Below are positions 6,908-16,520 of a stretch of 64,000 nucleotides of DNA, piece by piece. The DNA comes from Streptomyces mobaraensis (GTDB lineage: Bacteria > Actinomycetota > Actinomycetes > Streptomycetales > Streptomycetaceae): the NCBI RefSeq assembly GCF_020099395.1, contig NZ_CP083590.1, positions 1,426,001 to 1,490,000 on the forward strand, given 5' to 3'. The notes beneath the pieces were generated by a model, which saw nothing but the letters and a program-made list of their open reading frames with translations, did no database searches and was not told where the DNA came from. Made by a program: the position numbers and the translations under genes. Numbering within the stretch: position 1 is the first letter of the stretch; each line of letters starts with the position of its first letter.

Positions 6908-9900
6908 TCATACTGCTGCCCCTTTGATCTCCCGATGGTGGTCGAGGACGTCGACGACCGCGTGCAGGGCGTCGGGCACCCTGCCGGCCAACACCGGCAG
7001 GGCCCGGTACCAGCCGGCCGTTCCGAGGACGGAGTGGATGAGGTCCTTGGCAGCGGTGTGGTCGGTCGTGCTGACCGACAGGGCGTGCCCGGCGAGCACG
7101 CGGAGCACGGAGATCGCCCACTCGTCGTCCGCGCCGGTGGCCAGGTCCAGACGGGCTGGGGCGCCCAGCATCTGGGCGGCCACTGCGGTCATGGCGGTGG
7201 CTCGCTGTACCGGGTCCGTCAGGTAGTCGACCACCCGTCGGGCGTTTTTGACGTCACCCCGCGCGGCATGCAGCAGGCCGAGTCCGGTGACGAGGACGGG
7301 TTCGGTGGCGCCGCGCGTCCGTGCCTCGTCCTCGGCGGTGAGCAAGGCGCCGTCGACGGGCGTACCGGCCGCGAGGCGGAGCAGGGCGCCGGCGATGTCG
7401 GCGCCGTAACCACTCAACAGGCCGGGCCGCTCGACGCCGGGGATGATGGCCTCCTGAGCGAGCCCCACTTCAACGGCCAAGCCGACTCGCCGTCGGTAGC
7501 GGCGTTCCCATCCACTCGACTTCCTGCGCGCGTCAGGCTGGGCCCAACCCGCCGCTCGTTCGGCCAAACCCGCGTGAGCGAAGGCTTGCGCCACCAGGCC
7601 CCGCATGCGCGCGGTCTCCTCGTCCGCGACAGCGATCCCCCGTGCTACGGACTCCGCCTCCTCCGCACACCGCGACGCCTCGTCGAGCCGCCCCACGTCG
7701 GCGTGCGCGACGGCGGCGCTCGTGAGGATCCGAATCCGCATGACTGCGTCCGGTTCCCCGGCCGCCAGGGCGCGGGCCTCCGCCGCACCCTGATCACCGT
7801 CGCGCACCAGCGCCTCGGTAAGGAACGGCAGCCAGGTGATGGCCTGTTCACAGCTCTGGTTTCGAGACGACTCGATGAGCCGGGCCAAGCAGTCCCGCGC
7901 TTCGGGGCCGGCGCCGCGATCGGCGTGATGTTTCATCTCCGCCAGCAACCGGTCGACCGGATTCGCTTCGTCAGGCCGGCCGTCGAGCACGATCCGAGCC
8001 CGTGTGGTGATTTCTGCGGGCGCCCCGTCGAGCAGCCGACGCGCTCGGCGCGACGAACTGTCGACGTCGAGCAGGCTTCGCACCACTCTGGACAGCGTCT
8101 CGCCGAGACGGTCGTCCGCTGGGCCTGTCAGGAGCGCACGCATCCTGTCGTGTGCCGCATCGGCCAAGGTCCGCGCATCGTCCGGCAGTGTCTCCGCGAG
8201 CGCGGAAGCGGCCAGCGCGGCACAGTCCACGGCCGCCGGTCCGGCGGTCTCCACGTCGAGCGTAAGGGCGAACTCCATCATCCGGCGGTGCAGAGCCTCG
8301 GCCCTTGCCGGGTCGGCGCGGGCCACGGCAGTCCACATCTCCACGGCGACGGCGTGCTGTTCCTCCGCCATGAAGGCCAGATAGTCGGCTTGACCCGCCA
8401 CGTCGTCGAGGATCTCGGCGGCACGGTCGGGGTGGGAGCCGCACAGTCGCGACGCGGCTTCGGCCGCTGCGGAGAAGTGGCTGGGATGACAGACATTGAC
8501 CATGTTCAGCAGTCGGACCGCATCCTCCGGCTTCCCCGCGGCGGCAAGCAGGGCGGCGGCCTCCGGCACGACCTTGTCGGCGTCAAGCTCTTCGGCCGGG
8601 GCCGTCAAGGCGTTCTGGTACCGCGCCCGTTCGGCCCAACCGGCAGCCTCGCACGCGAATTCCCGCGCCTTCTTCTCGTCCCGGTCCAGCAGTACCTGTG
8701 TGACGTCCATCAGCCGCTTGGCCTTCGAGGCTGGGTCGGCGGGGGTGAGGGCGAGCGCCCTCGCCCGTGCCGTGTCCCCGACCAGTGCCAGGGCTTTCAC
8801 GACGGCGCGCGGGGCCGTCCGGTCCTCACGCTCCAGGAAATACCGCGAGGCGGCGACCTGCGCCAGCACCTCAGGCGTCGGCTTCATACGCGCCACTTCG
8901 TCGAGCGAGGCCAAGGCGAGGTCGGCTCGGTAGAGGTTGGCCAGGCGCAGGTGGCGGCGGTGGTCCAGGGCGAAGGCGAGGAAGCGGGGGGCGTCACCGG
9001 AGTCGCGGAGAAGTTCCTGGTAGCCGTTGAGCAGGTAGAGAGGGGTGTTCGACGGCCATTCTTCGCTGCGGTAGCTGTCGGCCCAGTCGTGCAACCGCTG
9101 CGTCAGAGAAGCGAGCGTGATGTCGCCCAACTTCTGTGCAGCCGTGCTGTACAAGTCTTTGTGGGCCAGAACGTAAGAGTCCGGATCCAATTCCTCGTAG
9201 CTCACGTTGCGGCCTGCCACATTGCGCAACATACGCTCGAAATGAGCGGGGGTCAGCAGTTCAGGGTGCCCACCGAGTCGCATCAGCTCAGCAAGAGCTG
9301 AGTATCCGAGCCCTCGCCGAGACACAGCAAGGAGCCCAATTATCTCCGCACCCTCACGGGTACTAAGCAGCGCCTCCAAGTCTCGGGAAGCTGATTTGCG
9401 CAGGCGGTTTGCAGCACGAGACGGTCGGAAGCCCGGGAGCACCTCGGAGTTGAGCAAAGGATGGTCGTCACCCACATCATCGGGGACTGGAGGATGCCAG
9501 CGCCTGGCAACCACCACCCGGAGGCCGTGTGGAGTCACCTTCGGCAGAAGGGAAGCGATACTCCGCAGGGGACGGCAGATACCGCTGCTCTGGTCCCATC
9601 TGAATCGCCCTGCTTCCGCATCCTCGTCCAGTCCATCAACGAGTAACACCAGGTTTCGTCCTCGTGATCGGCTCACCTGGGCCGCACTTTCGTACAAAGC
9701 GAAGAGAACGGCATCATCAACGAGATCTCCAGGGGGCGGATCTTCGACTCCGACGAGCCGACTGAGTTGGGTAACCATCACCTCGTGGAAGTTCTTTGCC
9801 CTATCAGCACTGGACCCCCAACGGACAAAATAGCTGATGAGGTCCACCTCATCAGGCATATGAAAGGTGACGAAATCGGCAAGCAACACAGACTTGCCAG

Positions 9901-10375
9901 CCCAAGGGGGCGCCACCAACGACAGATAAGCCGGCCCCTCTCGAACAACCCTAGTCAGCATCGCAAGGTCCGCGTCCCGGTCTTCCAATCTGGCCGCACG
10001 CAGGTTGGGGGCGGTATGAAGGTAACGGAAAGGCGGGACGAGGTCCGCCTTTATTATCGATCGCCACCCTTGCTTGGCCTTGCGTTCCGCATCAGCCTTT
10101 GCGATCAGGATGTCCCAAAAAGCTGGAGGTTTCGGTGACCTCCGCAACTTTCCTTCGAGGTGGGTGACCAAGGCCCGGCAATGCTCTCCTGTCGGTGCCG
10201 AAACCCCGTTGAACCAATCACTGAGCCTCTGCCTGGGGATTCCCAGGCGGGCTTCCAGGTCCCCGTATGACAGCCCTCCGCGCGCTGCCCGGACTTCATC
10301 GCGCAGGTCTCTCAGGCTGCCGGCCAACTCCTCCTTGGCACTCTGCTGTTTTCGGGACTCACTGGTGTCGCCCAT
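6908..10375 (-). CDS. HTH-STAND NTPase with long C-terminal helical repeat region
   Basis: ATG at 10375 follows a GGAGAGGAGA ribosome site and gives 1155 residues. Residues about 35-75 form an XRE-like helix-turn-helix (SYGDLEARLGIPRQRLSDWF). The NTPase core holds a Walker A-like loop at 155-162 (APPWAGKS, with Ala for the first Gly) and Walker B at 242-250 (LVLLVDGLD). From about residue 400 to the end the sequence is Ala/Leu/Glu-rich and helical, like TPR or other solenoid sensors of STAND proteins. STAND NTPases are switch proteins in signalling and antiphage defence. No nuclease or other toxic domain is visible. It is divergent from a Cascade operon lacking cas3, so it may be part of that system. 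Confidence 0.85.
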   Translation of the reverse strand: MGDTSESRKQQSAKEELAGSLRDLRDEVRAARGGLSYGDLEARLGIPRQRLSDWFNGVSAPTGEHCRALVTHLEGKLRRSPKPPAFWDILIAKADAERKAKQGWRSIIKADLVPPFRYLHTAPNLRAARLEDRDADLAMLTRVVREGPAYLSLVAPPWAGKSVLLADFVTFHMPDEVDLISYFVRWGSSADRAKNFHEVMVTQLSRLVGVEDPPPGDLVDDAVLFALYESAAQVSRSRGRNLVLLVDGLDEDAEAGRFRWDQSSGICRPLRSIASLLPKVTPHGLRVVVARRWHPPVPDDVGDDHPLLNSEVLPGFRPSRAANRLRKSASRDLEALLSTREGAEIIGLLAVSRRGLGYSALAELMRLGGHPELLTPAHFERMLRNVAGRNVSYEELDPDSYVLAHKDLYSTAAQKLGDITLASLTQRLHDWADSYRSEEWPSNTPLYLLNGYQELLRDSGDAPRFLAFALDHRRHLRLANLYRADLALASLDEVARMKPTPEVLAQVAASRYFLEREDRTAPRAVVKALALVGDTARARALALTPADPASKAKRLMDVTQVLLDRDEKKAREFACEAAGWAERARYQNALTAPAEELDADKVVPEAAALLAAAGKPEDAVRLLNMVNVCHPSHFSAAAEAASRLCGSHPDRAAEILDDVAGQADYLAFMAEEQHAVAVEMWTAVARADPARAEALHRRMMEFALTLDVETAGPAAVDCAALAASALAETLPDDARTLADAAHDRMRALLTGPADDRLGETLSRVVRSLLDVDSSSRRARRLLDGAPAEITTRARIVLDGRPDEANPVDRLLAEMKHHADRGAGPEARDCLARLIESSRNQSCEQAITWLPFLTEALVRDGDQGAAEARALAAGEPDAVMRIRILTSAAVAHADVGRLDEASRCAEEAESVARGIAVADEETARMRGLVAQAFAHAGLAERAAGWAQPDARRKSSGWERRYRRRVGLAVEVGLAQEAIIPGVERPGLLSGYGADIAGALLRLAAGTPVDGALLTAEDEARTRGATEPVLVTGLGLLHAARGDVKNARRVVDYLTDPVQRATAMTAVAAQMLGAPARLDLATGADDEWAISVLRVLAGHALSVSTTDHTAAKDLIHSVLGTAGWYRALPVLAGRVPDALHAVVDVLDHHREIKGAAV

Positions 10376-15813: not shown

Positions 15814-16520
15814 CCGATTCCGCCCGCACCCGTACCGCGACCGCCCGGTTCGTCGCCACCCACTCCGTCCTGACCCTGGACGCCCGGCATCCCTACGCCG
15901 CCAAGGCGCTCGTCGACGCCCAGGACATGCACCGCACGGTGATGAGCGGCTTCAAGGGCTGGGTCGACGACGGCAGCCGGGACCCCAGGGCCCAAATGGG
16001 CATCCTGTCCACCTGGACCATCGACCTGAAGAACGCCGCCCTCGTGCTGGTCGTGCAGTCCAGGGTCCCCGGTGACTGGAGCCACGTCCCCAAAGGAGCT
16101 CTCCGGGACAAGCCTCACCTCATCACCGTCGACCGCACCTACCGCGCCGGCGACAGCGTCAGCTTCCGGACGGTCGTCAACCCGACCTACGTGAAGCCGC
16201 AGTCGGGCCCGGACGGGCGGATGAGGCGCGGCAAGCGGGTGGCTCACACCACGCCCGCGGGCGTTCGGAAATGGGTCGTACGCCACCTGGGCGGCGGTGC
16301 GGAGCCCAGCCGGTTCGGTGTCACGACGGACGCCGAGACCGTCGCGGTGCGGTTGCTGCCGGCGGTCTCCAGCCCTGCACCGCACAAGGGGCTGAAGATC
16401 GCCCGTGCCGAGCTGCGCGGCGCCCTCACCGTGGTGGATCCCACGGCGTTCGTCACCGCGCTGTCGGACGGTATCGGGCACGCCCGCGCATACAGTTGCG
16501 GACTCGTACTGACGCGGTGA
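15810..16520 (+). CDS. cas6e: type I-E crRNA endoribonuclease Cas6e (CasE)
   Basis: The GTG start overlaps the cas5e stop by 4 bases and gives 236 residues. The N-terminal region has the family's substrate-binding/catalytic helix with His41 in [12 protein letters not shown], equivalent to the conserved catalytic His of Cas6e. A Gly-rich C-terminus ([16 protein letters not shown]) matches the G-loop. The protein would cleave pre-crRNA in the repeat hairpin and stay bound. Retention of the catalytic His suggests that crRNA processing is still selected. No array lies within the window, so crRNAs must come from elsewhere if the complex is used. Confidence 0.9.

Follow-up and report, generated by a model that had tools for sequence, protein, structure and literature searches.

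Type I-E CRISPR-Cas derivatives that lack Cas3 and are linked to a STAND NTPase have already been described, and the passages devoted to them present them as having no array (PMC8730458); a STAND-associated derived I-E of Streptomyces is credited to Shmakov 2018 where PMC12231136 cites that work. As portrayed in this literature, the STAND-linked Cascade has no nuclease, adaptation genes or array, and hence nothing to guide it. The protospacer-adjacent motif (PAM) of the Streptomyces avermitilis I-E system is given as AAN in the relevant section of PMC12231136. Among CRISPR-derived regulators, CreR is stated for I-B, I-E and V-A in the part of PMC13131331 that deals with it, and CreA is characterized in the corresponding part of PMC8501985 by pairing at positions 1-5 and 7-11 with the 6th and 12th bases left unpaired, and by a pair of degenerate repeats. 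Here we analysed a STAND-linked I-E locus of Streptomyces mobaraensis within a 64-kb stretch of DNA (the window; G000:C1:1426001-1490000 on the 7.67-Mb chromosome). All results come from computational sequence analysis, the comparisons sampled several hundred genomes, and coordinates of the locus are positions within the window.

As judged from its sequence, this locus carries a CRISPR RNA (crRNA)-like psiR1-psiS-psiR2 unit beside the cas operon, and guides of this kind match a site in their own locus in many of its relatives. We propose, with moderate confidence, that this I-E derivative, devoid of Cas3 and of adaptation genes, uses its Cascade as a self-guided, non-cutting repressor (CreR/CreTA-like), with the STAND protein in Cas3's place. 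A helix-turn-helix (HTH) STAND gene is divergent from two small open reading frames (sORF1 and sORF2), which are followed by cas8e-cse2-cas7e-cas5e-cas6e. The features are listed below, with lengths in amino acids (aa) or nucleotides (nt) and with the ratio of nonsynonymous to synonymous substitution (dN/dS) against the closest relative, L007.

6908..10399, minus strand: protein with HTH_3 (Xre), STAND NTPase and helical (TPR-like) repeats, effector candidate; 1163 aa in the longest ORF (open reading frame)
10552..10731, plus strand: sORF1, 59 aa; TTG start after GGGAAGGAA; hydrophobic stretch and basic tail
10776..10796, plus strand: candidate guide target; PAM AAC followed by TCGGATGCTCAACTGTGG; matches guide positions 1-5, 7 and 8
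10863..10921, plus strand: sORF2 leader hairpin; GGAGGAG (Shine-Dalgarno stretch) paired with CUCCUCC
10929..11072, plus strand: sORF2, 47 aa, candidate repressed (toxin-like) small protein; Shine-Dalgarno AGGAGG
11073..11113, plus strand: inverted repeat I1, terminator-like; 17-nt arms, 88% complementary; directly 3' of sORF2
11221..11249, plus strand: psiR1, degenerate I-E repeat; hairpin CCCTG-CCAGC-CAGGG and 8-nt handle GTGCACCG
11250..11270, plus strand: psiS, spacer-like guide TCGGACGCATCTACTGCGCCA; 3' border provisional
11271..11294, plus strand: psiR2, second degenerate repeat; hairpin TCCCCG-CGCTGC-CGGGGA
11389..12990, plus strand: cas8e (cse1); ATG start; PF09481, 193 bits; dN/dS 0.20
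12978..13562, plus strand: cse2 (cas11e); PF09485; dN/dS 0.32
13559..14911, plus strand: cas7e; PF09344; dN/dS 0.15; relative of PDB 5u07 chain D, Cse4
14908..15813, plus strand: cas5e; PF09704; dN/dS 0.18
15834..16520, plus strand: cas6e; PF08798; start is the one used for searches, provisional; dN/dS 0.09

Alignment of the intergenic region between the STAND gene and cas8e in the window, L007, L008 and L041 revealed a conserved degenerate repeat-spacer-repeat just upstream of cas8e. Each guide unit comprises a single spacer between two degenerate repeats, the first of which carries a handle of 8 nt (ATGAACCG, GTGCACCG). By eye and with hairpin-handle scans, such units were found upstream of cas8e in 15 loci, and they lie some 600-1000 nt upstream of it in L009, L047, L049 and L050. 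The sites that the guides match fall into two classes. In STAND clade I (8/9 rows), in three caspase-type loci (with an AAA/WD40 protein beside Cascade; see below) and in two Cas3 plasmid loci (L074/L075), the matched site is at the start of cas8e, mostly 24-30 nt upstream and, in L071-L073, 89-104 nt away from the start as annotated; guides of this type either precede cas8e or stand at another place in the locus, in many cases behind cas6e. In STAND clade II, to which the window belongs, the site is found 127-181 nt upstream of sORF2 (150 nt in the window). The L074/L075 loci are Cas3-bearing I-E systems with a CreR-like guide, and their mismatches within positions 1-17 occur only at 6 and 12.

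We scored the best AAN-flanked site between -1300 and +60 of cas8e, at positions 1-5 and 7-11 only, against 20,000 permutations of each guide. This gave p values of 1e-4 to 3.3e-3 in 12/15 loci, with scores of 9/10 in L007 and 10/10 in L041, L055 and L042. Matches per position (1 to 18, n=15) were 15, 15, 15, 14, 15, 3, 13, 15, 11, 13, 12, 4, 11, 11, 7, 8, 5 and 4; the unscored positions 6 and 12 are at chance, and the unscored positions 13-14 are above it (22/30). Such dips at 6 and 12 would be expected from bases that stay unpaired in a Cascade R-loop. The guide of one locus did not match the sites of unrelated loci. At the cas8e start, 10/10 was reached in 13 of 31 loci (L077 included), compared with 1.3% (33 of 2606) of windows drawn at random from these loci. 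Among 23 guide-site pairs, positions 13-14 match in 31/46 cases against 12.8 expected (20/26 for the 13 distinct seeds), and the PAM is AAC in 21 and AAT in two, the share of C among AAN sites being 35%; this set left out L010, L048, L054, L056-L058 and L076, which gave no pair, and L077, whose 10/10 at 62 nt is doubtful. We regard the 15-locus permutation test as the cleaner of these two because only positions 1-5 and 7-11 were scored. The pattern was also seen in a hold-out of 12 new loci, which were assigned to clades by best STAND match and scanned with a start window 20 nt wider than in the 31-locus test: 10/10 with AAC at the cas8e start was found in 5/5 clade I STAND loci and in the one caspase-type locus. 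For the five clade II loci, L088 and L089 reached 9/10 with AAC and L090 reached 8/10 with AAG, 173 nt upstream of sORF2, and no unit was found in L085 and L086; the Cas3 locus L091 had no 10/10.

In the window itself, the guide TCGGACGCATC... and the sequence AAC-TCGGATGCTC... at 10776 agree only at positions 1-5, 7 and 8, and a 1-nt shift gives further matches. No other AAN site of the 64-kb window matches all seven positions, and this one aligns near the 9/10 site of L007. At the cas8e start, the best score of the window was 8/10, within the control range, and no CreR-type site was seen there. A search for a better target of the window guide found none in the 64-kb window or in L004, and a genome-wide search with the guide's first 14 positions returned one place, with one mismatch and PAM AAG. 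Two copies of an operator for the HTH protein were also considered as the source of the guide-site match and were rejected: the sequence that is matched varies from locus to locus, agreement drops at positions 6 and 12, and the same pattern recurs in caspase-type and Cas3 loci that lack this HTH.

With regard to the small genes, sORF1 has a dN/dS of 0.05 against L007, and sORF1-like ORFs lie upstream of cas8e in L085, L086 and L088-L090; we infer that it is the 'small membrane protein' of the literature. For sORF2, dN/dS against L007 is 0.45. The clade II sORF2 genes encode 33-47 aa, and ten aligned products share WL and a hydrophobic AAV-type stretch. The sORF2 leader of the window folds at -45.8 kcal/mol (z -4.1 against mononucleotide shuffles), and a strong leader hairpin next to or including the Shine-Dalgarno sequence was found in 8/8 loci folded (z -2.4 to -5.8, likewise against mononucleotide shuffles). 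In the window, L007, L008 and L041, base pairing includes the Shine-Dalgarno itself, with stems that differ yet stay complementary, and the inverted repeat behind sORF2 is kept in the latter three. sORF2 and the guide unit occur together in ten clade II loci (window, L007, L008, L041, L042, L051, L052, L055, L089 and L090). In the clade II loci that we read, sORF2 was never seen without a guide unit, and L048, L085 and L086 have neither; L088 has a guide unit and a dissimilar 62-aa ORF.

Several observations weigh against our proposal. The guide-site match of the window (7/10, with a 1-nt shift after position 8) has p = 0.25 when taken alone and is not significant by itself; for the window, the self-guide interpretation depends on the evidence from related loci. 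In the permutation test, L052 and L053 gave p = 0.085 and p = 0.2, respectively, and the loci are related, such that the combined p of the 15-locus test overstates their independence. For the pairs, 8/23 guides were found via their site, and the filters also considered positions 13-17. No guide was found in the STAND loci L010, L048, L085 and L086 or in the Cas3 sisters L054, L056, L057, L058, L076 and L091, and no promoter was identified beneath the clade II site. In L069 and L053, a guide and its site are present and a clear sORF2 is lacking. In addition, sORF2 had no Pfam/NCBIfam match, a homologue search found none, and its product is weakly hydrophobic in the window (KD15 1.46); its toxicity is putative. 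The out-of-frame sORF2 sequence aligns to L007 at 63%, about as well as the proposed frame (64% similar), and we therefore place less weight on the conservation of sORF2 and have slightly lowered our confidence in the proposal and in the guarded-protein reading given below.

An initial search for cas8e relatives returned only four loci. Cas8e was detected at E <= 1e-8 in 42/295 Streptomyces genomes, of which 19 scored at least 298 bits. In these 19 genomes, the effector at Cascade was STAND_TPR (12), an AAA/WD40 (caspase-type) protein (3) or Cas3 divergent from cas8e (4), with one effector per locus in 19/19 and full Cas3 together with STAND in none. Conversely, STAND_TPR at 600 bits or more was found in 15 genomes, 12 with derived Cas8e and three without, and the linkage is kept whether STAND is divergent or behind cas6e. 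The first-pass annotation of this DNA had suggested testing across genomes whether STAND and the Cas3-less operon co-occur, and their linkage is conserved. The genomes G166, G066 and G178 lack the derived Cascade and encode strong relatives of STAND_TPR, scoring about 765-770 bits. In a Cas8e tree of 31 rows (root drawn at midpoint), the 20 STAND rows form one clade (100/99), the three caspase-type rows form another (100/100), and the eight Cas3 rows fall outside; rows dropped were L045 (same strain as L010), L059 (a fragment, G203), L079 (whose contig is as long as that of L007) and L092 (as long as the L076 plasmid), and 17 plasmid records matched, of which eight were retrieved (H1-H3, H6, H8-H10 and H16). 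We take the Cas3 form to be ancestral because Cas3 rows lie outside the other clades and from general knowledge of type I systems.

The caspase-type effector (1471-1547 aa) has AAA/STAND and WD40 matches, and of the three proteins only that of L047 also matches caspase, weakly. A Cas3_HD-only ORF of ~300 aa adjoins cas8e in all three caspase-type loci (L047, L049 and L050), scoring 27-33 bits to Cas3_HD, over the family cut-off, and 137-145 bits to the Cas3 of L074. The loci with an AAA/WD40 protein and an HD remnant are possibly intermediates between the Cas3 and STAND forms. A large AAA/WD40 protein stands beside Cascade in L047, L049, L050 and L087, and in L047 and L049 it has a small alpha/beta-hydrolase-like partner. 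In L053 (1-8019), a tandem pair of large ORFs lies beside Cascade, the nearer being STAND_TPR (876 bits). In L043 (G012), a rearrangement has apparently split the locus, cutting STAND and cas7e, and the remainder of a match to STAND_TPR is found at 6.7 Mb of that contig. An order-wide sample (E <= 1e-40) placed the family in 23/391 genomes, of which 22 belong to a single genus and the remaining one, G301, to a different family. The closest locus outside the genus is that of G301 (L069; 69% Cas8e identity), with runs of 73 and 22 repeats and no clear sORF2; its host being of another family suggests horizontal transfer of the locus.

The first-pass annotation had described a complete five-gene I-E Cascade next to a divergent HTH-STAND NTPase of 1155 residues, with two tiny ORFs between them and unrelated genes on either side, and this description stands. 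Each of the five Cascade proteins of the window matches its own Pfam and PADLOC family, the small ORFs lie at 10552-10731 and 10929-11072, and the outer neighbours are a lipoyl ligase (5663-6877) and an NAD-binding protein (16543-17166). Rfam and tRNA scans of the 64-kb window gave no match. The STAND protein has HTH_3 and STAND_TPR matches and scores 708 bits to PADLOC PDLC01173, labelled 'associated with cas1-less I-E system in Streptomyces'; the locus has the Cas3-less Cascade beside STAND_TPR that marks STAND-linked derived I-E. Its NTPase core carries Walker motifs (invariant G168-K169, D255 and D258), structure matches cover residues about 112-467, the C-terminus is of helical repeats, and the only Pfam match at the N-terminus is HTH_3 (Xre), with no enzyme domain; a whole-protein Foldseek search gave low TM-scores. 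Purifying selection acts on all five cas genes (dN/dS 0.09-0.32), and STAND evolves faster (0.37 vs L007). Cas6e carries an MHRT motif, whose histidine we take to be catalytic. This motif aligns with the MHRT of PDB 2y8w, CSE3. The annotation had also mentioned, correctly as far as the relevant passages go, a link to Class 1 classification work (PMC8730458, PMC12231136).

The absence of cas3, cas1, cas2 and an array, which had been reported as well, is true of the locus and not of the genome, because a complete canonical I-E system is present in the same chromosome (L004:4698-15893 = G000:C1:1,358,697-1,369,893), about 56-67 kb before the window. Its genes are a cas3-cas8e fusion in one 1587-aa frame (Cas3_HD and a Cas8e-like part), cse2, cas7, cas5, cas6e and cas1, with an array of 18 exact repeats of 61-nt period at about L004:14766-15893; the same repeat occurs elsewhere in the genome, and Cas3_HD is found only at this canonical locus. 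Compared with type I-E, the STAND locus has the Cascade genes; a cas3 with the operon, cas1-cas2 and an ordinary array were not found within it, where two degenerate repeats do flank a spacer (11221-11294). The idea of a Cascade operating without its nuclease fared both ways: cas3 and arrays exist elsewhere in this genome, and 8/13 STAND-Cascade genomes searched (its own and 12 of 19 relatives) are without Cas3_HD, with the STAND-Cascade linkage conserved.

Under our proposal, Cas6e would process a psiR1-psiS-psiR2 transcript into a crRNA-like guide, and guide-loaded Cascade would bind the own-locus site through a seed-only match (positions 1-5 and 7-11) beside an AAC or AAT PAM, blocking transcription. 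In the apparently ancestral form (L074/L075, caspase-type loci and STAND clade I), the site at the cas8e start would give CreR-like autorepression of Cascade. In STAND clade II, including the window, the guide would be aimed upstream of the hydrophobic-peptide gene sORF2, with its ribosome site occluded, in a CreTA/CrePA-like arrangement, and STAND and sORF1 may have replaced Cas3 as effector or output. When Cascade is disabled (e.g., by an anti-CRISPR) or drawn to other crRNAs or targets, repression would lift, and sORF2 and/or STAND-sORF1 could cause dormancy or death; we suggest such a release because of the analogy with CreTA/CrePA, as far as the relevant part of PMC12737573 describes it. 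The first-pass annotation had supposed that Cascade could regulate genes, which agrees with the own-locus guide matches in many relatives and less well with the weak match in the window; the signalling to STAND that it also envisaged may occur and would be consistent with STAND in Cas3's place. More tentatively, and with some doubt on our part, Cascade could be the guarded protein of an NLR-type system, in which the self-guide would silence a membrane peptide gene and the loss of Cascade or its capture by an invader, through an anti-CRISPR or competing targets, would free the peptide together with STAND-sORF1.

Cascade might instead be an RNA-guided sensor that activates STAND on an invader R-loop, with crRNAs from flanking or distant arrays and with the self-guide serving house-keeping autorepression. 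This would fit the place that STAND takes over from Cas3 in 12/19 genomes, the canonical arrays of the own genome, and the runs of at least four near-palindromic repeats (~61-nt period, consensus about GTGCTCCCCGCACCCGCGGGGATGGTCCC) in 11/20 STAND loci and 3/3 caspase-type loci scanned, in which spacer totals are approximate given that palindromic repeats can count on both strands. Three places in the array of L050 (caspase type) also resemble Streptomyces phage terminase/capsid genes (E 0.008-0.03, 5/5 matching records). However, an ordinary array scan of the loci found none in the window, L007, L042, L043, L048 and L053, the guide unit only in L055, and two or three repeats in L010 and L046. 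The own-genome arrays use a different repeat, to which the family repeat has three mismatches (its matches in this genome are all of this kind, at 29 places, mostly the canonical repeat). When the arrays of L049 and L069 were searched against phages, nothing matched, and the L008 array gave a single 85-nt match of 75% that is not spacer-shaped. We consider the sensor explanation unlikely on balance.

The canonical system might alternatively supply crRNAs and Cas3 in trans to the STAND locus as a spare effector, and a complete I-E with cas3 and arrays is indeed at hand in this genome. The genomes that have no Cas3_HD speak against such service, as do the derived Cas8e, just 29% identical to canonical Cas8e over the aligned part, and the 17 spacers of one canonical array, none of which has an AAN-flanked match of at least 9/10 in the locus; we find it highly improbable. 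Nearly as hard to sustain is the view that STAND works on its own, as an Avs-like sensor of a phage protein, with Cascade as a mere neighbour: a derived Cascade adjoins STAND in 12/15 genomes with strong STAND_TPR, none of the 19 genomes combines STAND with a full Cas3 at the locus, and the linkage persists in both gene arrangements. Lastly, the weak guide-site match of the window and the faster evolution of STAND could point to a decaying immune-system relic with chance repeat-like hairpins, which is scarcely probable given five intact cas genes under purifying selection, the comparison with control windows and the hold-out results.

A dedicated guide and a defined site make the function of STAND-Cascade directly testable. 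Our finding links CreR/CreTA-type regulation to the loss of Cas3, and it suggests a stepwise path from Cas3, via an HD remnant with a caspase-like/WD40 protein, to HTH-STAND, that is, from DNA cutting to signalling. The literature that we searched gave no report of a guide for STAND-linked I-E, which is not proof of absence, and the original CreR paper was not among the matches.

As far as the published description goes (PMC8730458; PDLC01173), our locus shares with STAND-linked derived I-E the operon, the STAND_TPR family, the lack of cas3/cas1/cas2 and a small membrane protein nearby. It differs in its one-spacer guide with an own-locus site and in the two site classes, and the published type is presented as array-less whereas many relatives here have ordinary arrays and some are intermediates with an HD remnant and a caspase-like/WD40 protein. 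With Avs/NLR-type STAND receptors it has in common a STAND NTPase with a helical repeat C-terminus, but here the N-terminus is an Xre HTH with no enzyme domain by Pfam, and Cascade is a neighbour. Like CreR, within what the sources say of it, the loci have a crRNA-like unit whose repeats are degenerate, and in clade I, the caspase-type loci and the two Cas3 plasmid loci this unit partly matches the start of the cas operon. We regard the clade I guides as further CreR cases because CreR is already stated for I-E in the part of PMC13131331 cited above; in contrast, the Cascades here are mostly Cas3-less, and the clade of the window has its site away from the cas operon. What is new is this clade II arrangement, together with the Cas3-less setting. 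CreTA (H. hubeiense, PMC8501985) and CrePA (PMC12737573) belong to I-B and I-F systems in the relevant parts of those papers and regulate an RNA toxin or a KilA-N protein, whereas here an I-E Cascade without a nuclease would control an unproven peptide gene of 33-47 aa with a hairpin that occludes its Shine-Dalgarno sequence.

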